In this document: positions 23,532 through 40,381 of the stretch, in pieces
Layout: each line of letters opens with the position of its first letter
Numbering within the stretch: position 1 is the first letter of the stretch
The notes under the pieces: generated by a model
Databases searched by the model: none
What the model was told of the DNA's origin: nothing
What the model saw: only the letters and a program-made list of their open reading frames with translations
Position numbers and translations under genes: made by a program
Source of the DNA: Paenibacillus sp. URB8-2
Lineage (GTDB): Bacteria; Bacillota; Bacilli; Paenibacillales; Paenibacillaceae
DNA length: 64,000 nucleotides
Reading direction: 5' to 3'
Assembly (NCBI RefSeq): GCF_013393385.1
Contig: NZ_AP023239.1
Span: forward strand, 2,790,001 to 2,854,000

Positions 23532-23802
23532 TCCCCAATTTTTGTCCGACCTGCCGGAAGGTCCGTGCTATGATGCCGGTCATTTGGTCACTGTGAATGC
23601 GGGTTGGCGGACCCGTAAGCCGGTTCTGGACTCCGAGGCGTGTACAGGCTGTTATATCTGTTATATGAACTGTCCGGAAGGCGTAATCTTCAAATCGGAC
23701 GACAAAGTTGATATTGATTATGATTTCTGCAAAGGCTGCGGAATCTGCGCGAACGGCTGTCCCAAGGATGCCATAGTGATGATCAGAGAGGGGGAGGCGT
23801 AG
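23500..23802 (+). CDS. 2-oxoacid:ferredoxin oxidoreductase, delta subunit (2x[4Fe-4S] ferredoxin)
   Basis: 100 residues from ATG 23500, with AAGGAGG ten bases upstream. Two clusters are visible: Cys48, 51, 54 and 58 in CTGCYICYMNC, and Cys77, 80, 83 and 87 in CKGCGICANGC. It carries electrons from the TPP-bound intermediate to external ferredoxin. An open frame extends upstream into the gamma gene but without a better start. Confidence 0.92.
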   Translation: MNRPALRKYVNPQFLSDLPEGPCYDAGHLVTVNAGWRTRKPVLDSEACTGCYICYMNCPEGVIFKSDDKVDIDYDFCKGCGICANGCPKDAIVMIREGEA

Positions 23803-23803
23803 C

Positions 23804-24997: not shown

Positions 24998-25895
24998 CAA
25001 AGTCAGAATTAACGCGAGAACGATTACGGACAAAGAATTTTTCTACGGGCATAAAGCGTGCGCGGGCTGCGGAGGAAGCCTTGCCGTAAGGCATATTCTC
25101 AAGGTGCTCGGCGAACGGACGTTTACCGTGCTTCCAGCAGGCTGTATGTCCGCGGTTGGGTTCAACTTTCCTCAGCTGTGCTTCGACAGCAACGCCATTA
25201 TCTCCACTTTTGCCGGAACGGCATCGATGATGTCGGGCATTGCGGCGGGCGCCCGGGCGCTCGGATTGAAGGATTATCACGTTGTCGGCATCGCCGGCGA
25301 CGGGGGAACCGCGGATATCGGCCTGCAGGCGCTGTCCGGCGCCATCGACCGGCGGGAGAAAGTCATCTATATTTGCTATGACAACGAAGCCTATATGAAC
25401 ACCGGCATTCAAAAGAGCGGTCTGACGCCTTTCGGCGCCCGGACGACGACGACGCCTGCCGGAGAGAATATTAAAGGCACGGTCACAACCAAGAAGAATA
25501 TGTTCGAGATTGTTGCCGCACACGGAATCGACTATGCCGCGACGGCCAGCGTAGGCTATATCCAGGATTTTATCAATAAAATCCAGAAGGCTTCCGAGGT
25601 GGACGGCACATCGTACATCCATGTCTATGCACCTTGCCCGACGGGCTGGGGAACCGAAACCGATGTCACCATTGATCTGGCGAAAGAGGTGGTGGATACA
25701 GGTCTCTGGGTGCTTGCTGAATACGAGAATGGTGAGTTCCGCCTTAACCGCAATCCAAAATCTTTTGCTCCCGTGGAGAATTATGTTCGCAGACAGGGGC
25801 GCTTTAAGCATCTGGAAGACGAAGATATCACAGCCATCATGCAGGCGCGGGACGCGAAATGGGAGCAGATACGCACTTCCTGGAAGCTGAAATAA
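24984..25895 (+). CDS. 2-oxoacid:ferredoxin oxidoreductase, beta subunit
   Basis: 303 residues from ATG 24984. The TPP motif begins GDGG at 106-109 and ends near DNEAYMNTG. Cys26 and Cys29 (CAGC), Cys54 (PAGC) and a Cys near 217 (APCPTGW) are placed as the usual [4Fe-4S] ligands. The substrate class (pyruvate, branched-chain, aromatic or methylthio-oxobutyrate) cannot be fixed by eye. The aminotransferase and PaaK-like ligase in the same operon favour a bulky amino-acid-derived oxo acid. Confidence 0.92.
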   Translation: MSVVNKVRINARTITDKEFFYGHKACAGCGGSLAVRHILKVLGERTFTVLPAGCMSAVGFNFPQLCFDSNAIISTFAGTASMMSGIAAGARALGLKDYHVVGIAGDGGTADIGLQALSGAIDRREKVIYICYDNEAYMNTGIQKSGLTPFGARTTTTPAGENIKGTVTTKKNMFEIVAAHGIDYAATASVGYIQDFINKIQKASEVDGTSYIHVYAPCPTGWGTETDVTIDLAKEVVDTGLWVLAEYENGEFRLNRNPKSFAPVENYVRRQGRFKHLEDEDITAIMQARDAKWEQIRTSWKLK

Positions 25896-25938: not shown

Positions 25939-25967
25939 TTGACAGAGTAAATGATCTATTCTATAAT
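25939..25967 (+). promoter_or_regulatory. Consensus sigma-A promoter of the nitrogenase-like cluster
   Basis: TTGACA at 25939-25944, a 17-base spacer and TATAAT at 25962-25967: a perfect consensus promoter 262 bases before the first cysK. Such a strong promoter followed by two terminators implies control by termination rather than by initiation alone. Confidence 0.85.
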
Positions 25968-26013: not shown

Positions 26014-26189
26014 CTGGCTGACCGGTTACCCGGAAGCTGAGCCCCCAATAGATTTGGGATGCTTGGCTTCCTTTTTTATAGGATATTTTGTGATTATTAT
26101 CACAATTGCAATCTTATAGTCTCTCTTAGCCAACCAGTTCACTGGAGGCTTGACATGACCATTTAGGGTCGGGTCAAGTCTCTTTTTAT
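26014..26189 (+). promoter_or_regulatory. Leader with two tandem hairpin-terminator modules
   Basis: Module 1: CCGG-TTAC-CCGG hairpin (26022-26033) whose 3' GG also starts a terminator stem (GGAAGC at 26032 with GCTTCC at 26066-26071) followed by six T. Module 2: CCAG-TTCA-CTGG hairpin (26134-26145) whose last G starts the stem GAGGCTTGAC (26145-26154) with GTCAAGTCTC (26173-26182) followed by five T. The modules align (GGCTGACCGGTTACCCGGAA against AGCCAACCAGTTCACTGGAG) with compensating stem changes, which points to conserved RNA structure. I infer a tandem attenuator or riboswitch of unknown ligand controlling the operon. Confidence 0.6.
26088..26105. promoter_or_regulatory. Fnr/Crp-type palindrome
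   Basis: TTGTGAT-TATT-ATCACAA, containing TGTGA-N6-TCACA, the Bacillus Fnr consensus. It lies between the two terminator modules. A possible TATAGT -10 sits at 26115. Anaerobic control is likely, but whether by activation of a second promoter or by blocking is not visible. Confidence 0.6.
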
Positions 26190-26228: not shown

Positions 26229-27185
26229 ATGACGAAAATCGCAAGTAAACTGACGGATCTCATTGGTAACACACCACTTTTGGAACTCAAGGGCTTCAAC
26301 GGGGAAAAGCAGCTTGGCGCATCGGTGATAGCTAAACTGGAATACTTCAATCCGGCTGGAAGCGTAAAAGACCGGATCGGCTACGCCATGATCAAGGAGG
26401 CCGAGGAGCAGGGCCTGATCGGGCCGGGAACCGTTCTTATAGAGCCTACCAGCGGCAATACCGGAATCGCCCTTGCCTTTGTAGCTGCATCCCGCGGATA
26501 TCGACTGATCCTGACTATGCCGGACACAATGAGCGTGGAACGCCGCAATCTGCTGAAGGCACTGGGCGCCGAGCTGGTGCTGACACCCGGAGCGGAGGGC
26601 ATCAAGGGCTCTGTCCGCAAGGCGGAAGCGCTGGCGGCAATTACACCGAACTCCTTCGTTCTGCAGCAGTTCAACAATTCGGCCAATCCCAAAATTCACC
26701 GCCAGACGACCGCCGAGGAAATCTGGCGGGATACGGACGGCAAAGTAGATATCTTTGTCAGCGGAGTCGGAACCGGGGGGACGATAACCGGAGTGGGAGA
26801 AGTCCTGAAAGAACGGAATTCGGATGTGAAGATTGTGGCTGTGGAGCCGTTTAATTCTCCGGTACTCTCGGGCGGAAATCCCGGACCGCACCAAATTCAA
26901 GGGCTTGGCGCCGGATTTGTTCCGCTTATTCTGAACCGGGAAGTCATTGATGAGGTGTTCAAGGTTCGAAATGAGGAAGCGCTGGATACGGCGCGGGATT
27001 TGGCTCGCACGGAAGGGCTGCTCGTGGGTATTTCTTCGGGCGCCGCCGTTTTTGCAGCTTCTCAGCTGGCCAAACGGAAAGAGAACAGAGGCAAAAATAT
27101 TGTCGTCCTGCTGCCGGATACAGGCGAACGCTACTTATCCACCGTATTGTTTCAGGAACCGGCGCAGACAGGAGGATTGTCATGA
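26229..27185 (+). CDS. cysK: Cysteine synthase (O-acetylserine sulfhydrylase), first copy
   Basis: 318 residues, fold-type II PLP enzyme: Lys47 in NPAGSVKDR binds PLP, TSGNTG at 74-79 binds the substrate carboxylate and GTGGT at 181-185 binds the phosphate. It joins sulfide to O-acetylserine to give cysteine; relatives can use methanethiol or other nucleophiles. The ribosome binding site GGAGGA is eight bases upstream and the stop overlaps the NifK-like start by four bases. That tight coupling says its job is tied to the reductase, probably capturing a reduced sulfur product. Confidence 0.92.
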
Positions 27186-28522
27186 GTAAAGTAATTGAAA
27201 GACCGCGTTATGTATGCGCCCTTGGCGGCGCGATTGGCACCATCCAGTCACTGCCCCGGGCCATTCCGATTCTTCATTCCTCTTCCGGCTGCGGCGGAAA
27301 TCTGGCTGGAGCGTTAAGCGGAGCTTCGGGGTATAACGGCGGCAATTATTGCGGCGGCCAGGCGCTCCCAAGCTCGAACGTATCCGAGAGGGACATTGTG
27401 TTCGGCGGCGAAGGCCGGCTTCAGGAACAGATCGAGAACACGCTGAAGGTAATGGATGGGGATTTGTATTTTGTAGTAACCGGCTGCATGGTCGAAATGA
27501 TCGGCGACAATGTTCATGCGGTAACCAAACGTTTCAAGGGTGAAAAATTACCTGTTCTGGCAGCGGAAACGGTCAGCTTTAAAGGGAATTCCTATTACGG
27601 TTACGAGCTGGTGCTGGAAACCTTATTCCGCGACTTTGTGGAACCGGCTCCGGTCAAAGATGCCGGGACAGTGAATTTATGGGGAGTCGTTCCCATGCAG
27701 GATGTGTTCTGGAAAGGCAACCTCGGCGTATTGAAAAGTTTGTTGAAGAAATTAGGTTATGAGACCAATACCTTCTTTGGCCAGGGCGAGACTTTGGAGA
27801 ACCTGAAAAATTCCGGAAAAGCCAGCCTGAATATCGTCGTTTCGGATGCGTACGGAATCGAAGCAGCCAAAGTATTTGAAGAAGTGCACGGCGTCCCCTA
27901 TATTACGGTTCCTTTGCCGATCGGGGATCACGGGACTTCGCGGTTCCTTCGTACCGTAGGTAAAGCTCTCGGCGTCGATGATATCAAGGTCGAGAAATTG
28001 ATCCAGGAAGAAAGAAAAGCTTATTATCCTTACCTAGAGCGTCTGGCGGATGTTTACAATGATCTCGATTTCCAGAGATACGCCACCGTGGTCGGCGATC
28101 CCAATTATACGCAGGCCGTGACGCGGTTCCTCTCAGACGATCTGGGCTGGCTGCCTGAACTGATTGTGGTCACCGATATTCTGGGCGAAGAGCAGAAGGA
28201 ACGGGTCCTGGCATCATTCGGTGAATATGAATCCGGGCTTCGTCCGGAAATTGTGTTCGATGAGGATGCCTCAAGTGTCGGAGGCTATATCAACCGCCAC
28301 TGGCCGCAGAATCAAGGTCAAAAATATTACAAAGGCTTCGCCCCGGGAGTCATTATCGGAAGCGTTATGGAACGCGATACGGCGGAACAGTTCAAGGTGC
28401 CGCTGCTGCCGGTCACTTATCCCATCTCCAACCGGGTGGTGCTGAACCGGGCATATGCCGGTTATTCCGGCGGGCTTACTCTTGCCGAGGACATTCTCAG
28501 TCTGGTTGTAGCTCATCGTTAA
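27182..28522 (+). CDS. Nitrogenase-like component 1, NifK-like (beta) subunit
   Basis: 446 residues, shorter than NifK (about 520). Cys12, Cys37 and Cys102 line up with the three P-cluster cysteines of NifK (70, 95, 153): the 12-37 spacing of 25 is identical, and Cys102 sits in [13 protein letters not shown], matching Nif[24 protein letters not shown] matches the NifK FGG segment and [13 protein letters not shown] the later one. Cys57 is extra. It should pair with the NifD-like protein and hold the electron-transfer cluster. Family alternatives (BchB, CfbD, NifN) fit the context less well; methylthio-alkane reductase MarK is the closest functional analogue by context. Confidence 0.8.
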
Positions 28523-28564
28523 TGAAACTCATCATTGTTCGTATAAAACAAGGAGGCTTGTTCA

Positions 28565-30103
28565 ATGGATTACATTAAACATAAAGTACCACCGGTGCGT
28601 GAAGACCGCTTGATGGCTTGCCAGGCCTACGGAGGAACCTGCGGAGATCTGTCCACAGAATCAAAGAAAGGCTGTCTCTACGCCAGCAAGCGCACCTTCT
28701 CTCAAACCCAGGGCTGCCAGCTTAATCTCAGTCTGGGTATGATCAGCTCGATGCGCGACGCGGTTATGGTGATTCACAGCCCGATCGGCTGCGGAGGCAA
28801 CCTGATCCAGAACGCCGGGATTAATAAAGTATTTCAGAAGCTGCGCCAGGAATCGGCGGTCGGCCTGCGGTGGATTAACACCAACCTTAGCGAGGTGGAT
28901 GTGATCAGCGGAGGCGAAGCCAAGCTGCGGCAGGCCGTACTCAAAGCCGAGCGTGAATTTAGGCCAAGCGCTATTCTTGTTTTTAACAGCTGTGTTCCTG
29001 CCTTGATTGGCGACGATATTGACGGGATACTGGATGATTTGCAAAAGCAGGTATCGGCCAAGATCGTACCGATCCACTGCGAAGGCTTCAAGACCAAAAT
29101 TCAGGCAACCGCCTATGACTCCGTTTATCACGGTCTGATCCGCAATTTAGTGGGCGAGGACAATACCGCGACACCTGCGGTCATCCGTACACCGGAGGAA
29201 GAGATCGAACATCAGGCCAAAATCAGCAAAACGGTCAATTTGCTCAATGTTGGTTCTATGAGCCGTATCGATGAGGAAGAACTGGTGCGATTGCTCAAGG
29301 CGCTTGATCTCAACGTTCGGATTTTGCCCTCGTATTCGCACCCCGATGACTTTACCTATGCGCATGAAGCGGCTCTCAATGTCAGTATCTGCGCAACGCA
29401 TGACGATTATTTTGTAGAGCATTTCAAGCAAATGTACGGTATACCTTATGTGCTGCGGACCATTCCGATCGGCATCGCCAATACCAACAAATGGCTGCGC
29501 GATATCGCTTCCTTCTTCGGGATCGAGGAGCAGACCGAGAAGCTGATTGCAGCCGAGACGGCGGAGCTGAAACAGGCGATTGAACCGTTTAAAGCCCAAT
29601 TCAAAGGGAAGACCGCGTTTCTCACCGGCGGCGAGGTGCGGATTCTGACTACTGCGGAGCTGCTGCATAATCTCGGATTTGAGATCCTGGGCTTGCGGGG
29701 CTATCACTTCGACAAATACGGCGAGATTCTCCTGGATGAATATTTGGAGGATGTTCCTAATTCGGAAAAAGCGATCTTTAATATCGGTTCGGGCCAAGTG
29801 TTCGAACAGGCCAATTTGCTCAGCAAAATCACTCCCGACTTATTCGTTGGTCATATCGGCGTTAACGGCTCAGCAGCCAAGCAGGGATATCCGATCTTCC
29901 CGTTGTTCGGACAAAGCGACGACTACTTGGGATACAAAGGTGTGTTTGAAGTGGCAACGCGGGTCAGCCGTATTTTGAAAAATGCGTCATTTAACAAAAA
30001 CCTGGGCAAAAATACGAGACTGCCTTACCGGGATAGCTGGTACGAGCAGGACCCGTTCACGTATATTGACGATTCGGCCAGTGTAGCTGCCCGCATTGGA
30101 TAG
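28565..30103 (+). CDS. Nitrogenase-like component 1, NifD-like (alpha) subunit
   Basis: 512 residues. Cys51, Cys76 and Cys143 match the NifD P-cluster cysteines (62, 88, 154). HCEGFKTKIQ aligns with NifD RCEGFRGVSQ, so Gln191 is kept (Gln180) but His195 becomes Tyr184. Cys276 (NVSICATHDDYF) matches cofactor ligand Cys275. The position of cofactor ligand His442 is Phe448 (YPIFPLFGQ). It therefore probably holds a cofactor-like cluster bound differently, and should not fix N2. Four extra N-terminal cysteines (19, 26, 37 and neighbours) precede the core. ATG follows AAGGAGGCTTGTTCA. By context it resembles methylthio-alkane reductase MarD. Confidence 0.82.
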   Translation: MDYIKHKVPPVREDRLMACQAYGGTCGDLSTESKKGCLYASKRTFSQTQGCQLNLSLGMISSMRDAVMVIHSPIGCGGNLIQNAGINKVFQKLRQESAVGLRWINTNLSEVDVISGGEAKLRQAVLKAEREFRPSAILVFNSCVPALIGDDIDGILDDLQKQVSAKIVPIHCEGFKTKIQATAYDSVYHGLIRNLVGEDNTATPAVIRTPEEEIEHQAKISKTVNLLNVGSMSRIDEEELVRLLKALDLNVRILPSYSHPDDFTYAHEAALNVSICATHDDYFVEHFKQMYGIPYVLRTIPIGIANTNKWLRDIASFFGIEEQTEKLIAAETAELKQAIEPFKAQFKGKTAFLTGGEVRILTTAELLHNLGFEILGLRGYHFDKYGEILLDEYLEDVPNSEKAIFNIGSGQVFEQANLLSKITPDLFVGHIGVNGSAAKQGYPIFPLFGQSDDYLGYKGVFEVATRVSRILKNASFNKNLGKNTRLPYRDSWYEQDPFTYIDDSASVAARIG

Positions 30104-30144
30104 CTTGCGATTAATTGAACAATTAAATGGGAGGGGAAATGGAG

Positions 30145-31020
30145 ATGTCTGAAACTGAAGCGAAAATTAAAGTAAGCGGGGTAACCCGCAAGTATTCGAT
30201 CCGGCGGAATACGGAAGAGGAGAAGAAAGAATTTACCGCTTTGCAGGATGTGGATCTGAATGTAAGACCCGGTGAGTTCCTGACCATAGTAGGACCGAGC
30301 GGCTGCGGGAAATCGACATTGCTGGATCTTTTGGCCGGGCTTGCCGTGCCAACAGAAGGCGAGTTGTTCATTGATGGTAAGAAAATCACGGGTCCTGCGC
30401 TGGATAGAGGGATCGTCATGCAAGGATATGCTTTGTTTCCCTGGCGAACGGTTCGCCGCAATGTGGAATTTGGTCTGGAAATCAAAAAGGTTCCTAAAAA
30501 AGATCGAAAAGCCATCAGCGACCGGTATCTGGAGCTTGTCGGATTAAGCGGCTACGGCGACCGTTATCCTTATGAACTGTCAGGCGGGATGAAGCAGCGG
30601 GTGGCCATTGCCCGGGCATTAGCGTATGACCCTGAGGTTCTGCTCATGGACGAACCGTTTGCGGCGGTGGATGCCCAGACCCGGGAGACTCTTCAGGATG
30701 AGCTGCTGCAAATCTGGGAGCGGACCGGAAAGACGATTGTGTTTGTTACCCACAGCATTGATGAAGCCGTCGCTCTTGCCGATCGGGTCGTTGTCATGTC
30801 GCCCAATCCGGGCAGAGTCCGCGAAATTGTTCCTGTTTCCCTGCCCCGTCCCAGACGTGTAGGGGATGTGCAATCCACGGCCGACTTCAGTTGGATCCGT
30901 CACAGGGTATGGGAACTTTTGCAAGGCGAGACAGCCACGGTCAAACCGGCACCCCAGCAGGCTCCGGTTCAAGCGCCGCTTGAGCTGGCCGAGCAGCTAT
31001 CCTCATCGGCAGCGTTATAA
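30145..31020 (+). CDS. SsuB/TauB-type ABC transporter ATP-binding protein
   Basis: 291 residues from ATG 30145, chosen because GGGAGGGG lies eight bases upstream (in-frame ATGs at 30127 and 30139 are poorer). Walker A GPSGCGKST at 50-58, signature LSGGMKQR at 145-152, Walker B VLLMDEP at 165-171. It belongs to the nitrate/sulfonate/taurine/NMT1 importer ATPases. It lies inside the nitrogenase-like block, apart from its permeases (33178-35959), which ties transport and reduction together. A Pro/Gln/Ala-rich tail of about 25 residues is unusual. Confidence 0.88.
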   Translation: MSETEAKIKVSGVTRKYSIRRNTEEEKKEFTALQDVDLNVRPGEFLTIVGPSGCGKSTLLDLLAGLAVPTEGELFIDGKKITGPALDRGIVMQGYALFPWRTVRRNVEFGLEIKKVPKKDRKAISDRYLELVGLSGYGDRYPYELSGGMKQRVAIARALAYDPEVLLMDEPFAAVDAQTRETLQDELLQIWERTGKTIVFVTHSIDEAVALADRVVVMSPNPGRVREIVPVSLPRPRRVGDVQSTADFSWIRHRVWELLQGETATVKPAPQQAPVQAPLELAEQLSSSAAL

Positions 31021-31099
31021 TCTTCCCCGGGGATAATGGTATGGCGGTGTCTCCATTCAAATCTTAAAAATGTGTATAACAGAGAAGGAGTGCAGATTA

Positions 31100-31978
31100 A
31101 TGGCTAAAAAAATAAAACAAATTGCAATCTACGGCAAGGGGGGAATAGGGAAGTCAACAACAACCTCTAACATTAGCGCGGCTCTGTCCGTGGCGGGCTA
31201 CAAGGTGATGCAGTTCGGCTGCGATCCGAAGAGCGATTCGACCAATACGCTGCGCGGCGGCGAGTATATTCCCACTGTGCTGGATACGTTGAGGGATAAA
31301 CAGATTGTAAGAGCGCATGATGTTATATTTGAAGGCTTTAACGGCATTTATTGTGTCGAAGCGGGAGGACCGGCTCCCGGAGTCGGCTGCGCTGGACGGG
31401 GAATTATTACATCCGTATCTTTGCTGAAGCAGCAGAAGGTATTTGAAGAATTAGATCTGGATTATGTCATTTACGACGTTCTCGGCGATGTAGTTTGCGG
31501 TGGGTTCGCCGTTCCTGTTCGGGAAGGCATTGCAGAACATGTATTTACAGTTACCTCTGCCGATTTCATGGCAATTTATGCGGCCAACAACCTGTTTAAA
31601 GGTATTCATAAATATTCTACCGAAGGCGGCGCACTTTTGGGCGGGGTCATAGCCAATTCCATTAACGCTCCTTATGCCAAAGACATCGTGGATGATTTCG
31701 TTGCCCGCACCCATACCCAGGTGATGGAATATGTTCCGCGCTCGGTTTCGGTGACCCAAGCTGAACTGCAGGGCAAGACAACCATCGAAGCGGATCCCGA
31801 TTCCAATCAGGCAAAGGTGTATAAATCACTCGCCCAAAAAATTATTAACCATACCGAGTCCAAGGTGCCGGCCCCTATGGAGACCAGCGAGTTAAGACAG
31901 TGGGCGGCCGAGTGGGGGAAACAACTGGTGGCGCTGGAATCCGGCCTGATCGCCCCGGCCGCAGCAGGCAATCTATAA
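31100..31978 (+). CDS. NifH-like reductase (nitrogenase-like component 2)
   Basis: 292 residues from ATG 31100 (AAGGAG upstream). P-loop GKGGIGKST at 12-20, FGCDPKSDST at 39-48, cluster ligands Cys97 (PGVGCAGRG) and Cys133 (DVVCGGF), and Arg100 in place of the ADP-ribosylated arginine of NifH. As a homodimer with one [4Fe-4S] cluster it should pass electrons to the NifDK-like complex with ATP hydrolysis. All catalytic features are intact. Close relatives include NifH, CfbC, BchL and MarH; context points to the last type of system. Confidence 0.92.
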   Translation: MAKKIKQIAIYGKGGIGKSTTTSNISAALSVAGYKVMQFGCDPKSDSTNTLRGGEYIPTVLDTLRDKQIVRAHDVIFEGFNGIYCVEAGGPAPGVGCAGRGIITSVSLLKQQKVFEELDLDYVIYDVLGDVVCGGFAVPVREGIAEHVFTVTSADFMAIYAANNLFKGIHKYSTEGGALLGGVIANSINAPYAKDIVDDFVARTHTQVMEYVPRSVSVTQAELQGKTTIEADPDSNQAKVYKSLAQKIINHTESKVPAPMETSELRQWAAEWGKQLVALESGLIAPAAAGNL

Positions 31979-32062
31979 TTCCGTATGCATAGCGGGGCTC
32001 CATATCAGGAGAATTTTCCATTGTCGGCGTCTGAAGCGGTCTTTAACAAGAAGGAGCATCGG

Positions 32063-32986
32063 ATGGCAAGAGCGCATGTTGTGAACAGCATTACGGATCT
32101 GATCGGGAATACACCGGTGGTGAGATTGCAGCGAATGGCCAGAAAAAATGTTGCGGAGGTTCTCGTTAAACTGGAATCTTTCAATCCTTCCGGAAGTGTT
32201 AAGGATCGGGCGGCTTACAACATGATTCTGAGAGCGGAACAAACGGGAAAACTTCGGCCGGGGAGCACGATTATCGAACCGACAAGCGGCAATACGGGAA
32301 TTGGAATCGCAATGAACGCCGCTGCCAGGGGATACTCGGCGATTATTGTCATGACGGACAATATGACGAACGAACGAGTCAGTATATTGAAAGCCTACGG
32401 TGCGAAGGTGGTGCTTACGCCGGTTGCCGAAGGTATGAAGGGGGCCATTGCCCGGGCCATCAGGCTGAATGAAGAAATTCCCGGAAGTCTCATGCTTCAT
32501 CAATTCGAGAACAGCGCTAACCCCGACAGCCACCGGACGACAACGGCGCTGGAAATCGCGGAGCAGACAGAAGGCAGGCTAGACGCCTTCGTAGCGTGCG
32601 CCGGTACCGGGGGAACGATTACAGGAGTCGGAGAAACGCTGAGACGTTTGATTCCCGGAATTTCTATTTACGTAGTCGAGCCAAAGGGCTCTCCTGTACT
32701 CTCTGGCGGGAAGGCAGGGCCTAACAAGCTTGTCGGAACTGGTCCAGGCTTTATTCCTACCGTGCTGAATACCAGTGTATACGACGAGATTGTTCAGGTA
32801 TCGGATGATGACGCGCTCGTGGCCATGAGGGATCTTGCCCGCAGGGAAGGTCTGCTTGTAGGCCCTTCATCCGGTGCGGCGGTGTGGGCCGGATTGCAGG
32901 TTGCGGACAGGCTCGGCCCCGGCAAGAGGGTGTTGTGCATGGCGCCCGACACAGGCGAGCGGTATTTGAGCATGGATGTTTTTTGA
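32063..32986 (+). CDS. cysK: Cysteine synthase, second copy
   Basis: 307 residues from ATG 32063 with AAGGAG eight bases upstream. Lys47 in NPSGSVKDR, TSGNTG at 74-79 and the GTGGT phosphate loop are all present. It is clearly diverged from the first cysK of this cluster, so it is not a recent duplication. Two cysteine synthases bracketing the nitrogenase-like genes suggest either two nucleophiles (sulfide and an alkyl thiol) or two acceptors (O-acetylserine and O-acetylhomoserine or phosphoserine-like). A terminator-like hairpin follows. Confidence 0.9.
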   Translation: MARAHVVNSITDLIGNTPVVRLQRMARKNVAEVLVKLESFNPSGSVKDRAAYNMILRAEQTGKLRPGSTIIEPTSGNTGIGIAMNAAARGYSAIIVMTDNMTNERVSILKAYGAKVVLTPVAEGMKGAIARAIRLNEEIPGSLMLHQFENSANPDSHRTTTALEIAEQTEGRLDAFVACAGTGGTITGVGETLRRLIPGISIYVVEPKGSPVLSGGKAGPNKLVGTGPGFIPTVLNTSVYDEIVQVSDDDALVAMRDLARREGLLVGPSSGAAVWAGLQVADRLGPGKRVLCMAPDTGERYLSMDVF

Positions 32987-33103
32987 CCGTATATGGTTCA
33001 AACTTGATTTGCTATGTCTATAATTGCGCCTTAAAACTGACTAATAAGATAAGATTACTGAGTAAAGAGTGCAGTTATTTCCTGCAGCCCACTTTTCCAA
33101 AAG

Positions 33104-33145
33104 AGGTCAAGCAGCCGATCTCCATCCGGCGAGCTTGACCTTTTT
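33104..33145 (+). terminator. Terminator or attenuator between cysK2 and the permease
   Basis: Perfect 9-bp stem AGGTCAAGC (33104-33112) with GCTTGACCT (33133-33141), an inner GCCG/CGGC pairing and five T, 37 bases before the next start. A weak TTCAAA-16-TATAAT promoter ends at 33024, so this may be a leader attenuator for the transport genes rather than the end of the first transcript. Confidence 0.7.
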
Positions 33146-33177
33146 AATAAATACAAAATGAAAGGAAGTGAAAGTAA

Positions 33178-34032
33178 ATGCCCGAGATCGACAATGAAAT
33201 CCTGCTCCGGACGTATCCGATTAACCGGATTCATCCAAAACCCAAAGGCAAAAAAGTGCCTGTCCTCCCCATACTGAAGGCCGCTGTCGAGAAATCCGCC
33301 GTTATGCTGTTCATTCTCTCGGCTTGGGAGGCGCTGCCGCGTCTCGGACTTGTCGATCCGTTCCTGCTGCCGCCGTTCAGCGACGCCGTCGTAAGTCTGC
33401 TGCGCCTGTTTCAGTCGGGCGAGATGTTCCGGCATATCGCCAAAAGCCTGGAACGTTCGGGGCTGGGATTCCTGGCAGCAGTGGCCTTCTCTATCCCCGT
33501 CGGCACCTTCATGGGCTGGAACAAACGGATCGATCGCATCGCCGATCCGCTGCTGCAGGTATGCCGTAACACTTCGACGCTTGCCCTGTATCCGGTATTC
33601 ATTCTGTTTTTCGGATTGGGCGAGACATCGAAGATTGCCATCATTCTGTGGGGAACCGTATGGCCGATTCTGCTGAACACCATATCGGGGGTGAGGGAGG
33701 CGGACCCGCTGCTGATTAAATCGGCGAGATCCATGGGCATCTCCAGAATCGGGCTGTTTACCAAGGTTGTCTGGCCGATGGCGATGCCTTCCATTCTGAC
33801 CGGACTCCGCCTCAGCGCCTCGACCGCGATTCTGATGCTGGTGGCCGCAGAAATGTTAGGCGCCGACCGGGGACTCGGGTTCATGATTTTCTATTATCAG
33901 GAAAGATACGCCATCCCCGAAATGTTCGGGGGCATTATCTTTATTGCTGTCCTGGGCGTCTTGATCAACTTTCTATTAGTCCGTTTGGAACGCCGGATGA
34001 CCCGCTGGAAGGAGCGCATCGTCAAAGGCTAG
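33178..34032 (+). CDS. SsuC/TauC-type ABC transporter permease
   Basis: 284 residues, an N-terminal cytoplasmic tail of about 35 residues then six hydrophobic segments. The permease signature SARSMGISRIGLFTKVVWPMAMP (in pieces, near 180-203) is the EAA loop that contacts the ATPase. It belongs to the sulfonate/taurine/NMT1 family. It is similar to the second permease at 35177, so the channel is probably a heterodimer. Confidence 0.88.
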   Translation: MPEIDNEILLRTYPINRIHPKPKGKKVPVLPILKAAVEKSAVMLFILSAWEALPRLGLVDPFLLPPFSDAVVSLLRLFQSGEMFRHIAKSLERSGLGFLAAVAFSIPVGTFMGWNKRIDRIADPLLQVCRNTSTLALYPVFILFFGLGETSKIAIILWGTVWPILLNTISGVREADPLLIKSARSMGISRIGLFTKVVWPMAMPSILTGLRLSASTAILMLVAAEMLGADRGLGFMIFYYQERYAIPEMFGGIIFIAVLGVLINFLLVRLERRMTRWKERIVKG

Positions 34033-34101
34033 AAATCAAGGCCTGCCAAAGCTCGTTGAAGCAGGATCTATTCTGTAACAGGAAAAGAGGAATAGGAAGA
34101 C

Positions 34102-35127
34102 ATGGGAAACAAGAGAATGAGGATCAAACCGGCGCGGCCGATCATGCTGAGGGCGCTGCTCCTGCTGGCTGCGGCATCCACACTGCTCGCAGGCTGCGGC
34201 AAAGACGCGGGTACCGCGGAAGCGGGAAGCTCGGTAAAAGGACCGGATATTATCCGGCTGCCGACCCCGACCAATTTGACCGGCATCTCCATTTATTATG
34301 TGGCCGAAGAGCTCGGCTACGTGAAGGAAGCCGGACTTCAGTTCGATTATGTCGGCGCCGTTGAGTCCGGACAGCTCGTGGCGTCAGTCGTTGCGGGCAA
34401 GATCGATGTGGGCGGCGCGCACATCAACCGCACCATCGCCGGCATCAGCGCGGGAGCCAAAATCAAGGCGGTTGTGGCTCAAACCGAGACGACCGAAGAA
34501 ATCCCGCATATGAGCTTCGTAACGACCAAAGACAGCCCGATCAAGTCTGCGGCGGACATCGTCGGCAAGAAAGTGGGTATTCCCGCCTTTGGAGGCTGCA
34601 ACGAGTATACGCCTTACGCTTATCTCCTAAAGAACGGAATTGCCGATCCCAAAGGCAAATTTGAAATTGTCACCGCCCCCGAAATCAAGCTGGAACAGGC
34701 GCTGCTGCAGGGCGAGGTCGACCTGATCGGTCTGCATGAGAATCCGTCCACCATTATCAAGCGCGGCAATCTAAAAGTCGTTTTCACGGATTATGATATC
34801 TGGAAGAGCATCGGCGGCGCCACCCCCCTCTATTTCTCCAATAAATTCATCAAGGAAAAGCCCGATGTGGTCAGACGCTTCGTCGATGTGATCAGCAAGA
34901 CCAATGATTTTGTCAATGCGAATCCGGAGAAAGCGATTGAGATTACAGCGAAGAGAGGCGATATGGATCCGGCCAAAATCAGGGCAAACCATTACGCAGC
35001 CCATGGCGAAATCAACCCGGAATCCGTGGAGGTCTGGATCGATCTTCTGAGCCAATTCAACGAAATCAAGAAGGATGTCAAGCCCGAGGACATTTTCACC
35101 AACGAATTCAACGATACGTTGAAATGA
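34102..35127 (+). CDS. NMT1/SsuA-family substrate-binding lipoprotein
   Basis: 341 residues with a lipoprotein signal ending in LLAGC (Cys32). The mature part has the NMT1/THI5-like pattern: IRLPTPTNLTGISIYYVAEELGY, then SVVAGKIDVGGAHINRT and VGIPAFGGCNEYTPYAYLL. The family binds sulfonates, taurine, aromatic acids or pyrimidines. Here the context of two cysteine synthases argues for an organosulfur compound. It lies between the two permeases and likely delivers the substrate of the reductases downstream and upstream. Confidence 0.88.
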   Translation: MGNKRMRIKPARPIMLRALLLLAAASTLLAGCGKDAGTAEAGSSVKGPDIIRLPTPTNLTGISIYYVAEELGYVKEAGLQFDYVGAVESGQLVASVVAGKIDVGGAHINRTIAGISAGAKIKAVVAQTETTEEIPHMSFVTTKDSPIKSAADIVGKKVGIPAFGGCNEYTPYAYLLKNGIADPKGKFEIVTAPEIKLEQALLQGEVDLIGLHENPSTIIKRGNLKVVFTDYDIWKSIGGATPLYFSNKFIKEKPDVVRRFVDVISKTNDFVNANPEKAIEITAKRGDMDPAKIRANHYAAHGEINPESVEVWIDLLSQFNEIKKDVKPEDIFTNEFNDTLK

Positions 35128-35176
35128 TCCCGCAGCGTTTGCCTTGATAAGCTGATGAGGTAAGGAGGGGGCAATT

Positions 35177-35959
35177 ATGAGGAAAAAAGCCTGGGTAAGG
35201 TTGAGGTCCGCTCCCGAAAGATGGGCGGCGATCATCGCGGTATGCGTAGCCTGGGAGGCCGTTTCGCGGAGTGGTCTGGTCAAAGATTTCATCCTGCCTC
35301 CATTTACCAGGGTCATATATAAGTTGGTTCAACTGCTCGTCACCGGTCAGATGTGGCCCGACATCGGAGCCAGTATGCAACGGGCCGCCTCCGGCTTCGC
35401 AATCTCGGTTCTGATCGCCATCCCGTTAGGATTCCTGATGGCCTGGTCGACAAGAATCGAGCGGGTGCTGGACCCTGTCATGCAGTTCATGCGCAATACG
35501 CCAACCTTGGCGCTATATCCCTTTTTTATTCTGGTTTTCGGGCTGGGCGAGCTGTCGAAGGTGGCGATTATTTTCTGGGGTGCAGTATGGCCTGTTCTTA
35601 TGAATACGGTGGAGGGGGTCAACCGGACAGACACTCTGTTGGTCAAATCCGGCCGGTCCATGGGCGCTTCGCCGCTGACGTTGTTCTTCCGGATCATCCT
35701 GCCGTCGGCCCTGCCTTCAATTTTTACCGGTATCCGTCTCAGTGCTTCGCGCTCGATTATCATACTGGTCGCGGCCGAAATGCTCGGGGCTGACAAGGGA
35801 CTCGGATTCCTGATCTTCTCCTCCGAACAGAACTACAAGGTGGAACAGATGTATGCCGGCATAATTGTCCTGATCCTTCTGGGCATGCTGGTCAACTTTC
35901 TGCTGGTCCGTTGGGAGAAACATATAACGCGCTGGAAACAAGACATCACCGGGTCGTGA
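35177..35959 (+). CDS. SsuC/TauC-type ABC transporter permease, second subunit
   Basis: 260 residues, six hydrophobic segments and EAA loop SGRSMGASPLTLFFRIILPSALP. It begins with a short basic stretch after AAGGAGGGGG. It is homologous to the permease at 33178 but lacks that protein's N-terminal extension. Together with 30145 and 34102 it makes a complete importer with split genes. Confidence 0.88.
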   Translation: MRKKAWVRLRSAPERWAAIIAVCVAWEAVSRSGLVKDFILPPFTRVIYKLVQLLVTGQMWPDIGASMQRAASGFAISVLIAIPLGFLMAWSTRIERVLDPVMQFMRNTPTLALYPFFILVFGLGELSKVAIIFWGAVWPVLMNTVEGVNRTDTLLVKSGRSMGASPLTLFFRIILPSALPSIFTGIRLSASRSIIILVAAEMLGADKGLGFLIFSSEQNYKVEQMYAGIIVLILLGMLVNFLLVRWEKHITRWKQDITGS

Positions 35960-36037
35960 AAACATACCTCCGGTTAGGCGCATCCGTAAAACGCGGTGGT
36001 AGGCTGTATTCCAATTCCAAAATACGAGGTGTTACTC

Positions 36038-38068
36038 ATGTTGATTCAAGAAGTGGTAGATGTAAGACTGCTGGATAAGATAACCGGCGGCAGCGTAATT
36101 GGCATCGACATCGGGTCGAGAACCGGCAAAGCGGTGCTGCTGTCCAGGGGACAGGTATATACGAGCTCGGTCTATACCGGCATCAATATGCAGGAAACGG
36201 CCGATGAGCTGCTTGAGGATTTGCTGGATCAATCGGCCCTCAAACGTTCGGACATCGATTATATCGTCGGCACCGGATATGGACGCATTGCCCTTCAGTA
36301 TAGCGATATTTCATCCCAGATTGTAACGGAAATTTCCTGCCATGCCATGGGCGCCCACTATTTGAACGCCGACGTCCGAACCATTGTGGATATCGGGGGC
36401 CAGGACTCCAAAGCGATTAGGGTGGACCCTTTGACCGGCGGTGTTGTCGAGTTCGTCATGAACGACAAATGCGCTGCCGGCACCGGCCGATTTCTCGAGA
36501 AGGTCGCCGAAATCCTGGAGCTGACCATCGATGAACTTGGTCAAGAGGCTGTGAAGTCAGGTTCGCCTTCCGAAATCAGCAGCCAATGCGTCGTGTTCGC
36601 CGAGTCGGAGGTCATTTCGCTCCGGGCCAAAGGCGAGACGCGGCAGGATATCGCCGCCGGCATTCACTTTGCTTCGGCCAAGCGGGTCCGCAATTTGCTC
36701 AAACGGGTCGGCATCGAGCCGGGCCTGATATTCTCCGGCGGCGTTTCCAACAATATCGGGATGAGGAAGGCGCTTGAGGATCTGTCCGGGCATCCCTTGA
36801 TCGAGGCCAAAATCGACACGATCTTCGCCGGTGCTCTTGGAGCGGCCATTCATGCCCTGAATTATTCAAAGGCGGCCATCACCTCGACTCAAGAAGCGGA
36901 GGACGTGTTCCGATTGGATCTTACAGGATTGGAGAACCGTATCGCCGAGCGTCAGGATCAGCTTATCGTAAATGCAGAAGATCGCAAAAAAGTCGGCTAC
37001 CTATGCTCATATACGCCGCTCGAAATGATCAGCGCCGCCGGCGTTTCCCATATTCGGTTGTTCAAGGCTGGCGATACCCATACGGTGGCAAGCGGCGAAC
37101 AGATCACGCAGAGCGTATTCTGCGATTTCACCAAGAGTATTCTCGGCGCCTTCAAAGAGAAAGACCCGCTCTATACTTCTCTGGATAAAATCTATACCTT
37201 CTATACCTGCGACTGCATCAAGACCGTAGGAGAGGCAATCGGTGAGTTCTTTACGCCAGCCGACATTTATACGCTTCCTCGGATTAAGGACAAGCCGTCA
37301 TCTCGCGATTTCTACAGCTCCCAAATCCTGAGCTTCAAGGCCGATCTTGAGCAGCTGTCCGGCAATATCATAACCGACGGTGAGCTGCGTTTGCAGATTC
37401 GGCAGTACAACGAGGTGCGCAAGCTGCTGACCCAAATCTCCGAGCTGCGCAAGCGTCCCAATCCGCCGCTTTCAGGCAAAGATTACCTGGACTTGGTCAA
37501 AGCCTTCTATTATTTGCCCGCCGAAGAGCTTCTTCCGCTGTACCAGGGCATCTATGACAAGCTGGCCGCGGTGCCTGTCCGTGAAGACCGCACGATCCGT
37601 CTGTTCATGGCCGGGGGCATTATCGCGGATGGCGACCGTAAGCTGCTTGAGCTGATCGAGGACGAGCTCGGAGCCAGAATTGTCGCCGAGGATCATTGCA
37701 CCGGGCTGAAAATAGCCTCAGGCTATATCGATGAGGAAGGCGATCCGTACCGGGCTCTGGCCGAAGGATATATTGATCAGACTCCCTGCGCACGGATGAA
37801 ACCGCTCCAGGAACGCGTGGAAATTTCAGGCGGACTTGCAACCGAATATCAGGCGGACGGTGTGCTGTATGCTTATCTTAAATTCTGCCCGTGCTATGGA
37901 CAAATCAAGAACGAATTCTTCCGTCATTATCAGCAGCTGGGCATTCCGGTTCTTGAACTGCCGATCGACTACTCCAAGAGCGATCAGGGTCAGCTCAAAA
38001 CACGGCTGGAAGCTTTTATCGAAGTATTGAGGGAACGCAAGGGGCTGACCGCCGTCGGAACGGCTTGA
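36038..38068 (+). CDS. Fusion of BadF/HgdC-type ATPase and HgdB-like iron-sulfur protein
   Basis: 676 residues from ATG 36038 (a GTG at 35996 is open but poorer). Residues 20-275 form an activator ATPase: DIGSRTGK at 24-31, DIGGQDSK at 118-125, and Cys145 (NDKCAAGTG) and Cys184 (SSQCVVFAE), 39 apart as in HgdC, to bind a [4Fe-4S] cluster between subunits. Residues 320-670 resemble the dehydratase/double-cubane side (DUF2229/HgdB-like): LCSYTPLEM with Cys323, FCDFTKS (Cys362), TCDC (391, 393) and FCPCYGQ near 640. Reductase and acceptor are thus in one chain. It should use ATP to deliver very low potential electrons. Confidence 0.85.
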   Translation: MLIQEVVDVRLLDKITGGSVIGIDIGSRTGKAVLLSRGQVYTSSVYTGINMQETADELLEDLLDQSALKRSDIDYIVGTGYGRIALQYSDISSQIVTEISCHAMGAHYLNADVRTIVDIGGQDSKAIRVDPLTGGVVEFVMNDKCAAGTGRFLEKVAEILELTIDELGQEAVKSGSPSEISSQCVVFAESEVISLRAKGETRQDIAAGIHFASAKRVRNLLKRVGIEPGLIFSGGVSNNIGMRKALEDLSGHPLIEAKIDTIFAGALGAAIHALNYSKAAITSTQEAEDVFRLDLTGLENRIAERQDQLIVNAEDRKKVGYLCSYTPLEMISAAGVSHIRLFKAGDTHTVASGEQITQSVFCDFTKSILGAFKEKDPLYTSLDKIYTFYTCDCIKTVGEAIGEFFTPADIYTLPRIKDKPSSRDFYSSQILSFKADLEQLSGNIITDGELRLQIRQYNEVRKLLTQISELRKRPNPPLSGKDYLDLVKAFYYLPAEELLPLYQGIYDKLAAVPVREDRTIRLFMAGGIIADGDRKLLELIEDELGARIVAEDHCTGLKIASGYIDEEGDPYRALAEGYIDQTPCARMKPLQERVEISGGLATEYQADGVLYAYLKFCPCYGQIKNEFFRHYQQLGIPVLELPIDYSKSDQGQLKTRLEAFIEVLRERKGLTAVGTA

Positions 38069-38124
38069 AGAACAGGCCGACCCGAACAATTAAATTACAA
38101 TTTCTTTAAGGGGGATGAACTTGT

Positions 38125-39009
38125 ATGAGCGATTGGAAGGAAATCATTGACCCTGATCTGCTGTCCAAAGTGACCGGCGATATTGCGGTCGGGCTTGATC
38201 TGGGTTCCAGAACGGGAAAAGGGGTGCTTTTGGCTGGCGGCAAGCTGTATACGGCGATTACGCCTACGGGCGTGTTCATGCAGGAGACGGCCGATAAGCT
38301 GCTGGACAAGCTGCTGAAGCAGTCGAAGGTGGCGCGGGAAGACATTGCCTATATTGTCGGCACGGGGTATGGCCGCATTGCACTGAACTTTGGTGGAATC
38401 GGGCACAAGATCGTGACTGAAATATCCTGCCACGCTATGGGCTCACATTATCTGAACGCCAAGGTCCGGTCGATCGTGGATATCGGCGGCCAGGATTCCA
38501 AAGCGATCAGAGTGGACCCAGCTACGGGCAAGGTTGTTGAATTTATCATGAACGACAAGTGTGCGGCCGGCACCGGACGGTTTCTGGAGAAAGTCGCACA
38601 TCTGCTGGATTTGACGCTGGAGCAGCTCGGCACCGAAGCGCTGAACGCGGATGCTCCCGCAGATGTCAGCAGCCAATGTGTCGTATTCGCCGAATCCGAG
38701 GTAATCTCCCTGAAAGCGAAAGGCGTATCCGCTGCGAACATTGCCGCCGGCATCCATCTGGCCACAGCGCGCCGCGTCCGTAATCTCGTCAACCGGATCG
38801 GACTTGAACCGGACCTCGTCTTTTCGGGAGGAGTTTCGAATAACCCGGGCATGACCAAAGCGCTCGAGGAACTGCTCGGACATCCGATCAGCAGGGTCAA
38901 GCTCGACACGATCTATGCGGGAGCGTTGGGCGCAGCCGTGTTCGCACAGAAGGCTGCTTCCAGCAGCGAGGCGGAGTTGGCCGATTTTGCTCTTTTGAAG
39001 GCGAAATGA
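38125..39009 (+). CDS. BadF/HgdC-type activator ATPase with [4Fe-4S] cluster
   Basis: 294 residues, strongly similar to the first part of the preceding fusion: DLGSRTGK at 25-32, DIGGQDSK, NDKCAAGTG with a Cys near 146 and SSQCVVFAE with a Cys near 185. As a homodimer it hydrolyses ATP to inject one electron at a time into a double-cubane or 2-hydroxyacyl-CoA dehydratase-type partner, most likely the next gene. The gene follows the fusion after 56 bases with GGGGGATG upstream of the start. Confidence 0.9.
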   Translation: MSDWKEIIDPDLLSKVTGDIAVGLDLGSRTGKGVLLAGGKLYTAITPTGVFMQETADKLLDKLLKQSKVAREDIAYIVGTGYGRIALNFGGIGHKIVTEISCHAMGSHYLNAKVRSIVDIGGQDSKAIRVDPATGKVVEFIMNDKCAAGTGRFLEKVAHLLDLTLEQLGTEALNADAPADVSSQCVVFAESEVISLKAKGVSAANIAAGIHLATARRVRNLVNRIGLEPDLVFSGGVSNNPGMTKALEELLGHPISRVKLDTIYAGALGAAVFAQKAASSSEAELADFALLKAK

Positions 39010-39160
39010 TGAAAATAGTTAAGCATCCTAATGAAAAAAAGCACCTTCTGTATACTGGGAAACGCTCCGACCAAAGAACAGTTCCAGCACAGCAGGCACT
39101 CTATCATGAGTATAAGTAATTATAGAAACAGAATCAATTTATAGTGGGAGGAATATGTTA

Positions 39161-40381
39161 ATGTCGACGGTGCTGACAAGCGAGGCGCAGGAACAGCTCA
39201 ACCATATCCGTTACAGCCGGGATACGGTTCATGCCCATTCGCCCGCGATCCAAAAGTTGTTCAATCTAGTAATCGATTATGTGGACGATGCGGAGAAAGC
39301 CGGAAAAAGCGGCACAAAGGTCATTTGGGCCGGAGTGCCCTGGGCGATGCCGCTGATCTATTCTACCGGAGCCATACCGGTCGCTTTTTCGGAGATGGGC
39401 CGCATCAGTGGACAAGAGGCCATTACCGTCTCTGAGGATTATTATCAAATGCCCGCCGAAACCTGCTCCATGGTGAAAGCGACAGCGGGCGAATGGCATT
39501 TGCGGAAGCAGGCCGGTACCTCGATCACCCGCATTTTCGGTTCGTCCTCCGGTTGTGAACCGTATAACCTGGCGTGGGAAGTGATGAAGAAGGAAGGCTT
39601 CGACGTATATACCAGCGACATCGTTTACCGGGCTCCTGGCGTCGAGGGCGAGCGTTATGAAGAACTGGTTCATTATTTTATTGATGAAATTCATGACTTC
39701 AATGAATGGCTGACTGGAAGCAGAGAGATTGACAAGGACAGCCTGCATCGTGAGATTGTCCGCAAGAACCATCTCATGCGCAGGATGCGGGAGATCATGA
39801 ATCTGCGCCTGCTGCATCCATTCCATGTTAAAAGTCTGGGAATCATGTACCTGATGAACGGGCTTACCCATTATTTCGGCAAACCCGAGGAATATACCGA
39901 GGTATTGGATGCACTGGTGGAGGAATTGTCTAGTCTTGAAACCGATGAGGCTGAGCGCAGACGAGCTATTCCGCTGATCTGGACGGGCGGCAATGGGCAG
40001 GAATTCGGTATTTATGAAACGATCGACAGTGCCGGGGGTTCGCTGCTCGGATTTGTAAGCTCTCCTTACGCCAAGGATTTTCGCGAAGATATCGATCCGG
40101 TCGAATCAGTCGCCCGCTTCCAGCTAGAGAGTCAGATGGCCGGGGCCTCGATTTACCGGCGCCACGTCATCGAGCAGCAGGTTGACCGGATTCAGGCGCG
40201 CGGCCTTATTTTGTACGGATACCTGGGCTGCTCGTTCGGAAGCGTCACGCGCGAGATGTACAGGGATTATTTCCATAACAAAGGCATTCCGAGCATTAAT
40301 CTGGAAGGAACATTCCAGGTCGGAGCCCCCAGCGGACAGCTTCTTACCCGGATTAAAGCTTTTATCGAAATGTTGTCCTGA
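39161..40381 (+). CDS. HgdB/double-cubane-cluster-like protein
   Basis: 406 residues from ATG 39161 (GGGAGG nine bases upstream; ATG 39155 is too close). Cys102 (AETCSMVK), Cys132 (SSGCEPYN) and Cys357 (YLGCSFGS) fit the three iron-sulfur ligand positions of the 2-hydroxyglutaryl-CoA dehydratase D/BcrBC/DCCP superfamily. The early cysteine found in many members is replaced (WAGVPWAMP). No second, unfused HgdA-like subunit is present, which favours a homodimeric double-cubane type protein or pairing with the fusion protein. It is the last gene of the cluster before a strong terminator. Confidence 0.8.
   Translation: MSTVLTSEAQEQLNHIRYSRDTVHAHSPAIQKLFNLVIDYVDDAEKAGKSGTKVIWAGVPWAMPLIYSTGAIPVAFSEMGRISGQEAITVSEDYYQMPAETCSMVKATAGEWHLRKQAGTSITRIFGSSSGCEPYNLAWEVMKKEGFDVYTSDIVYRAPGVEGERYEELVHYFIDEIHDFNEWLTGSREIDKDSLHREIVRKNHLMRRMREIMNLRLLHPFHVKSLGIMYLMNGLTHYFGKPEEYTEVLDALVEELSSLETDEAERRRAIPLIWTGGNGQEFGIYETIDSAGGSLLGFVSSPYAKDFREDIDPVESVARFQLESQMAGASIYRRHVIEQQVDRIQARGLILYGYLGCSFGSVTREMYRDYFHNKGIPSINLEGTFQVGAPSGQLLTRIKAFIEMLS

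Follow-up and report, generated by a model that had tools for sequence, protein, structure and literature searches.

Twelve complete open reading frames (ORFs), all on the plus strand and spaced -4 to 191 bp apart, occupy positions 26229-40381 of a 64,000-nucleotide stretch of the Paenibacillus sp. URB8-2 genome (contig NZ_AP023239.1, positions 2,790,001 to 2,854,000; hereafter the window), a single contig of 5.58 Mb. They encode two cysteine synthases, a nitrogenase-like enzyme called NflHDK here, importer parts and a second reductase made of BadF-type and HGD-type proteins. What is new lies ahead of the first gene, cysK1, which is preceded by two tandem hairpin/terminator leader elements. 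The element is shared with other genes, and this is the strongest functional evidence for a sulfur role. It appears reasonably probable that the operon scavenges sulfur from organic compounds in the absence of oxygen, using two ATP-driven reductases under leader-element control. It may be divided into module A (cysK1-nflK-nflD-ssuB-nflH-cysK2) and module B (ssuC, a substrate-binding lipoprotein [SBP] gene and a second ssuC, then a BadF-HGD fusion, BadF and HgdB2). A preliminary description had listed the same twelve genes on one strand; ORF positions and family scans of the twelve proteins agree with that list.

A conserved leader element

The 5' leader of cysK1 is conserved in the 11 Paenibacillus leaders that were aligned (the window and loci L049-L058), as far as each extends. 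A sigma-A-like promoter is followed by element A, a palindrome with a -10-like box and element B (Table 1). The palindrome is presumably FNR-like, judging from the FNR consensus. In each element the 3' arm of a hairpin doubles as the 5' arm of a terminator, and the hairpin consensus, GYY-RA-CCRG-N4-CYGG-A-RRC, overlaps that terminator. Four examples fold at z scores of -3.1 to -4.9.

A scan of named species genomes yielded 567 relatives, and the analysis went on with the best 80 loci (six are genomes also in the genus set described below). Among these 80 named loci, a pairing-filtered scan found 33 instances in 17 loci; 20 block shuffles, which preserve the composition of 100-base blocks but not dinucleotides, averaged 0.3. 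With a covariance model of 27 positions, 111 matches at E <= 1 turned up in 89 sources, part of which had also supplied training instances, and a terminator-like fold accompanied 50 of the 60 matches examined. The nearest labelled gene of 60 matches was ssuB/ssuC (11), nflK (10), cysK1 (7), nflB (6), OAHS (4), SBP (3), nflH (2) or, once each, nflD, a UroD-type gene and an aminotransferase gene; 10 had only an unlabelled neighbour and four had none. This tally prefers a labelled gene within 800 bases over an unlabelled one. In 22 whole genomes, some of which supplied training instances to the model, all 16 with NflD-type genes carry 4-18 matches (best E 4.1e-4 or lower). Four of the six genomes without an NflD match in the genus or phylum scans have none (G039, G203, G377 and G406), and the other two have one and two weak matches (best E 0.0135 and 0.066).

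Which other genes does the element precede? In a Moorella genome (G230; L251, 272-4383) it lies ahead of sat-cysC-aprA, and in L244 and L248 ahead of metK, the genes in each case exceeding the main cut-offs. The URB8-2 genome itself has copies before a MetN-like ATPase gene (L240, below cut-off), before a PNPOx-like gene followed by a 5'-methylthioadenosine/S-adenosylhomocysteine-nucleosidase-like gene (L242; 145.8 vs 169 bits), before a Mar-like set that includes an OAHS-like gene (L061; 493.7 vs 495.1 bits), before one of the nifB genes and before an SBP/nifH set (L243). In L118 one element precedes cysK1-nflKD and another precedes SBP-fusion-HgdB2. Through the shared element module A is connected with sulfur assimilation, and in L118 module B is as well.

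One set of pair counts rests on instances selected with the pairing filter, and two of its five measures fail to beat shuffles, 393 and 401 of 500 of which score as high. A filter-free count of 42 instances, unrelated matches included, gives 91 of 126 outer pairs where shuffles average 75.9 (reached in 2 of 2000) and 32 of 42 for the inner pair where they average 24.8 (reached in 1 of 2000), which is weaker than the filtered count. Rfam has no match to the leader at gathering score; at E <= 5 it gives two hits, both weak and unrelated (E 0.2 and 0.94) and well short of the gathering score. ANTAR-type sites do not fit the leader by eye. No description of the element was found in the searchable literature, including the accessible text of PMC11109978 and PMC545781, although most subscription papers lie outside such a search. 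Apparently, then, it is an undescribed RNA element.

The nitrogenase-like pair

NflK and NflD match PF00148 and score far below every NCBIfam equivalog cut-off shown. Only NflH passes its test (TIGR01287, 426 vs 394), so membership of the Nif/Vnf/Anf nitrogenases was rejected. By a wide margin, the best solved relatives of NflD and NflK are MarD and MarK of Rhodospirillum rubrum (30% and 35% identity). All P-cluster cysteines are kept, three in each protein. According to the accessible part of PMC12552129, Cys270 and His429 hold the [Fe8S9C]-cluster of MarD, and Arg428 beside His429 is proposed as a MarD hallmark. The ligand equivalents in NflD are C276 and H430. At the Arg428 position the window protein has a gap and Gly, whereas all 16 MarD-clade rows have Arg-His. 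MarD Trp195/Phe199 correspond to Gln180/Tyr184, and NflD relatives have Gln, Met or Val at the Trp195 position, rarely others, with Trp in two basal rows (L080 and L087).

A maximum-likelihood tree was built from 71 of 104 D-type rows, CfbD, Bch and NfaD rows not being among them. It places the window NflD within a 49-row clade (99/97), apart from the 16-row clade that contains MarD (100/99). The deep order is unsure because of long branches (an Isr-like row at 4902k, AnfD and NifD). The name methylthio-alkane reductase is not supported, given the missing Arg428 and Trp195/Phe199 and the separate clade. What the island has in common with MarBHDK (PMC12552129) is the nitrogenase-like H/D/K set, the P-cluster and cofactor ligands and a proposed sulfur role; it is set apart by its residues, its clade and the cysK and importer genes that share its operon.

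Isethionate reductase IsrBHDK of Rhodobacter capsulatus offers another comparison (PMC11423573, available in part). It too is nitrogenase-like, serves sulfur assimilation and is paired with an Ssu importer. However, IsrD lacks two P-cluster cysteines and both cofactor ligands, all of which NflD keeps, and membership of IsrDK was rejected on this basis. CfbD and BchNB/YZ were dismissed on profile scores, which stay below the family cut-offs. Judged by sequence, NflDK joins the other enzymes on the Mar side of the nitrogenase-like superfamily. The predicted NflD fold (mean predicted local distance difference test score [pLDDT] 69.8) is too weak for a pocket comparison.

Genes of this kind may have been encountered before. 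The 'group IV-A' genes near type I mlp clusters (PMC10418091) place nfl beside UroD-type methyltransferase, corrinoid and CysK genes. They probably belong to the same clade as the window NflDK, which is perhaps itself of group IV-A. The accessible text of PMC10418091 names no substrate and mentions neither a fusion reductase nor a leader RNA. Corrinoid, UroD-type methyltransferase and RamA-like genes were also seen in or near nfl loci L083, L085, L088, L090, L092, L094, L182 and L187. A second NflDK subtype, 39-47% identical, with Trp at the MarD Trp195 position and basal to the window clade, occurs in L080 (4233-7220) and L087 (3854-6687); in Pelotomaculum (L080) it adjoins the fusion reductase. 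A Geobacteraceae metagenome-assembled genome (MAG) has two nflD-type genes in tandem (L144, 10001-13058).

The genome of NflDK encodes 20 NifDK-family proteins (21 matches, one protein being split in two), gives six strong NifH-type matches and carries nif and anf sets and four nifB genes above cut-off. A separate pair at 4586-4589 kb (L062) is 72% and 67% identical to R. rubrum MarD and MarK, and two Mar-like pairs lie in L060 and L061. At 4900-4906 kb (L064) there is an Isr-like nflHDK set that lacks cofactor ligands and is accompanied by Ssu-type genes; a leader element and then a MetK-like gene lie ahead of it.

The link with cysteine synthase

Among named species, Paenibacillus rhizophilus has the nearest NflD (99%), and NflD at >=81% identity occurs in 12 of 100 genomes of the genus, URB8-2 included. 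The clade spans several phyla, and the best 80 loci include rows from Bacillota, Spirochaetota, Synergistota, Fusobacteriota, Thermodesulfobacteriota and Myxococcota. Neighbourhoods were counted in the 38 named loci flanked by 8 kb or more on both sides. All have nflK, 34 have an SsuB-type ATPase gene (28 both SsuB and SsuC), 33 have cysK, 23 have a NifB-like radical-SAM gene and 17 have a close nflH. In contrast to cysK, OAHS is a neighbour in only nine. In 19 of the 33 loci a cysK lies within 200 bases of D or K, and in 32 of them a cysK is on the same strand. Over all 80 loci, many with short flanks, cysK is near nfl in 62.

CysK1 and CysK2 score as cysteine synthase A (TIGR01139; 469.5 and 423.6 vs 351 bits) and have the motifs that we take to be those for pyridoxal phosphate and substrate. 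The nfl-linked CysKs are a median 70% identical to CysK1. Of the genome's further copies, those at 69 kb and 2557 kb reach 55% and 52%, but the one at 1371 kb equals the linked CysKs in its closeness to CysK1 (70%). A cysteine synthase also lies within a Pillotina nifDK operon (PMC13067680, in the part available). In the preliminary description, a nitrogenase-like enzyme of the Mar type was proposed to scavenge sulfur together with CysK and an importer. That proposal is supported by the MarD/MarK kinship, the frequent cysK and the leader held in common with sat-cysC-aprA and metK.

The second reductase

The fusion protein matches PF01869 and PF06050, the second BadF PF01869 and HgdB2 PF06050. 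All 12 sequences compared, the window's among them, keep six cysteines in the HGD half of the fusion, at spacings of 39, 29, 163, 30 and 33 residues. This resembles BzdN of class I benzoyl-CoA reductase, where Cys36/73/100/263/293/327 (spacing 37, 27, 163, 30, 34) are the [8Fe-9S] ligands, and the three cysteines that are all HgdB2 conserves have a counterpart in BzdO Cys95/128/380 (PMC11971306, accessible text). With only three cysteines in HgdB2, the double-cubane candidate is therefore the HGD half of the fusion. This corrects the double-cubane reading of the preliminary description for the HgdB-like gene at 39155-40381. The HgdB2 model (mean pLDDT 85.4) matches only DCCP, HAD and BzdNO/MbdON chains at E <= 0.001 (n=20).

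Six-Cys and three-Cys subunits together make a design like that of class I benzoyl-CoA reductase, but with an activase fused to one subunit. BzdNOPQ likewise combines double-cubane and [4Fe-4S] subunits with two activase-type proteins (PMC11971306, same text). However, the window reductase differs in the fusion itself, in lying beside importer and sulfur genes, and at the position of BzdO His131, three residues after the second cysteine, which is Tyr137 in HgdB2 and Phe in some relatives. The NCBIfam BzdN and BzdQ cut-offs are far from reached (89.9 of 453.8 and 206.3 of 380.2), and class I membership was rejected. The DCCP label was given up too. DCCP is a six-Cys homodimer with a separate activase, its six double-cubane cysteines recur in the fusion's HGD half only, and its cut-off NF040772 is not reached (224.6 and 79.4 vs 350 bits). 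Sulfur chemistry in this superfamily has a precedent in the desulfidase TudS. In G406 two more HGD-type genes, 28-31% identical to the fusion's HGD half, follow the fusion and HgdB2 (L181, 10773-13244).

Co-occurrence of the two reductases

Both HGD genes of the genome are in the island. In the genus set 11 other loci were fetched, and two are cut by contig ends (L054 and L055), leaving nine with enough flank. The BadF-HgdB/HgdB2 block adjoins nflD in six of these (L049, L050, L052, L053, L056 and L057). As NflD recurs within the genus and the block lies beside it in most of these loci, the gene set is not a product of chance.

Five loci outside Paenibacillus pair both modules. The block adjoins nflDK in Pelotomaculum (L080), a Syntrophomonadaceae (L098) and a 'Deltaproteobacteria' MAG (L118). 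A Family XIII MAG (L143) has the fusion and a partial BadF beside nflDK, then the contig ends. In G245 a distance of 14 kb separates HgdB2 from NflD, and the island around them also carries MetA, an NIR_SIR-family gene and a gene that is MetK-like by its start sequence. That they are neighbours in these lineages supports the view of the preliminary description that the two reductases belong together. Neither of the outcomes it had named as contrary, namely NflDK within CfbD or chlorophyll-type enzymes (judged here by profile scores only) or modules that never co-occur, was found.

Among 398 genomes sampled from the phylum, four have HgdB2 (E <= 1e-40), 14 have NflD (E <= 1e-60) and two have both, the window's own being one. 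In G377 the gene next to HgdB2 encodes an SBP that shares 53% identity with the window's, and the 20 kb examined contain no fusion gene; G377 is the only one of 46 genomes of its class with HgdB2. G406 has the fusion and a looser HgdB2 (37%). Neither genome has an NflD match in that sample scan, which weakly favours separate reactions over the preliminary description's proposal that both enzymes act on a single imported compound.

A working model and its alternatives

How might the island work? NflH, with ATP, would feed electrons to the P-cluster and [Fe8S9C]-type cluster of NflDK, the latter perhaps made with one of the genome's NifB copies. NflDK may reductively cleave a carbon-sulfur bond, and CysK could fix the released sulfide, or a small thiol, onto O-acetylserine. 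In module B the activase pair, one half of it inside the double-cubane subunit, would load low-potential electrons into the [8Fe-9S] cluster, and the open-site [4Fe-4S] cluster of HgdB2 might reduce or desulfurate an imported compound, in series or in parallel with NflDK. Lack of oxygen would turn on both modules via the FNR-like promoter, and sulfur shortage would do so via the two tandem anti-terminator/terminator elements, through a factor acting on the RNA. To our knowledge, an organosulfur role for a double-cubane/single-cubane design lies outside known aryl- and hydroxyacyl-CoA chemistry. A broader claim can be made only tentatively: that a sulfur-starvation anti-terminator RNA governs a cross-phylum regulon, including a nitrogenase-like C-S reductase that hands sulfide to a dedicated CysK and a fused double-cubane/single-cubane organosulfur reductase.

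Several observations do not fit comfortably. Some copies of the element precede pdxS, iron-ADH and MmgE/PrpD genes without an evident sulfur role. Module B is missing from three of the nine well-flanked genus loci (L051, L058 and L059) and is near only six of the 80 named loci, so it is an accessory module. Other NIR_SIR-family genes are present in the genome, and the island is therefore not its only possible sulfur route.

Could NflDK simply be a divergent methylthio-alkane reductase that releases methanethiol, with CysK making S-methylcysteine or being incidental? MarD and MarK are its closest solved relatives and the metallocluster ligands are held in common. However, Arg428 and Trp195 are absent from the window protein, its clade is separate, a much closer MarDK ortholog lies elsewhere in the genome, and the usual neighbour is CysK, not OAHS; this makes the idea unlikely. 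An unusual N2-fixing enzyme of the Nfa kind is very improbable. Nitrogenase-type clusters are predicted here, and NfaDK of Paenibacillus riograndensis has been called a likely nitrogenase (PMC9147875, accessible part), but the cysK and importer neighbours and the sulfur-linked leader point elsewhere, and nif and anf sets are already in the genome.

Other doubts concern the leader and module B. The elements might be plain terminators of upstream genes, with no regulation, as the frequent terminator-like fold and the position of element A, 121 bp past the upstream POR-like gene, would allow. Yet a sequence-conserved hairpin overlaps each terminator, the copies are tandem, behind promoter-like sequence and ahead of sulfur genes, and the instances greatly outnumber those in shuffles, so that this explanation is doubtful. 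Slightly less credible still is that module B is an extra ATP-driven electron source for NflDK and not a sulfur enzyme. Both systems use low-potential electrons and their genes adjoin, but NflH is already there, importer genes adjoin module B, and HgdB2-type genes occur in G377 and G406 without an NflD match. Organosulfur scavenging by two reductases under leader control is the reading that we prefer.

Gene order and neighbours

The SsuB, SsuC and SBP proteins are generic sulfonate/nitrate/taurine-type importer parts by profile scan; they clear the general family alone and miss the SsuA, SsuC and TauC equivalog cut-offs. Downstream of the island are a major facilitator superfamily gene (minus strand) and a LysR-family gene (plus strand). 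Upstream, at 21781-25895, lie an aminotransferase gene and 2-oxoacid:ferredoxin oxidoreductase gamma/alpha/beta-like genes, kept in L049/L069. At 43387-46569 the window encodes a protein of 1060 aa that matches dynamin-type GTPases at its N terminus and also has an NTF2-like domain of the TcaA type.

Table 1. Features of the island and its leader, in window coordinates.
Feature	Position	Strand	Basis
Sigma-A-like promoter, TTGACA-N17-TATAAT	25939..25967	+	sequence
Leader element A: hairpin 26017-26037 overlapping terminator 26032-26077	26017..26077	+	
FNR-like palindrome 26088-26105 and -10-like TATAGT 26115-26120	26088..26120	+	inferred from consensus
Leader element B: hairpin 26129-26149 overlapping terminator 26144-26187	26129..26187	+	
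cysK1, cysteine synthase A	26229..27185	+	
nflK, MarK-related; P-cluster Cys12/37/102	27182..28522	+	
nflD, MarD-related; P-cluster Cys51/76/143, cluster ligands Cys276/His430	28565..30103	+	
SsuB-like ABC ATPase	30127..31020	+	
nflH, NifH-type ATP-dependent reductase	31070..31978	+	
cysK2	31985..32986	+	
SsuC-like permease 1	33178..34032	+	
NMT1-type substrate-binding lipoprotein (SBP)	34102..35127	+	
SsuC-like permease 2	35177..35959	+	
BadF activase fused to six-Cys (double-cubane type) HGD subunit	35996..38068	+	
Second BadF-type activase	38125..39009	+	
HgdB2, three-Cys (single [4Fe-4S] type) HGD subunit	39155..40381	+	

Implications

With MarDK, two Mar-like pairs, an Isr-like pair and a member of the window clade in one genome, Paenibacillus sp. 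URB8-2 is a good test organism. A large nitrogenase-like clade without an assigned function gains a testable job and a partner, CysK, and the double-cubane reductase design gains a testable sulfur role. The RNA element, in turn, may be a switch for nitrogenase-like enzymes in sulfur-limited anaerobes.

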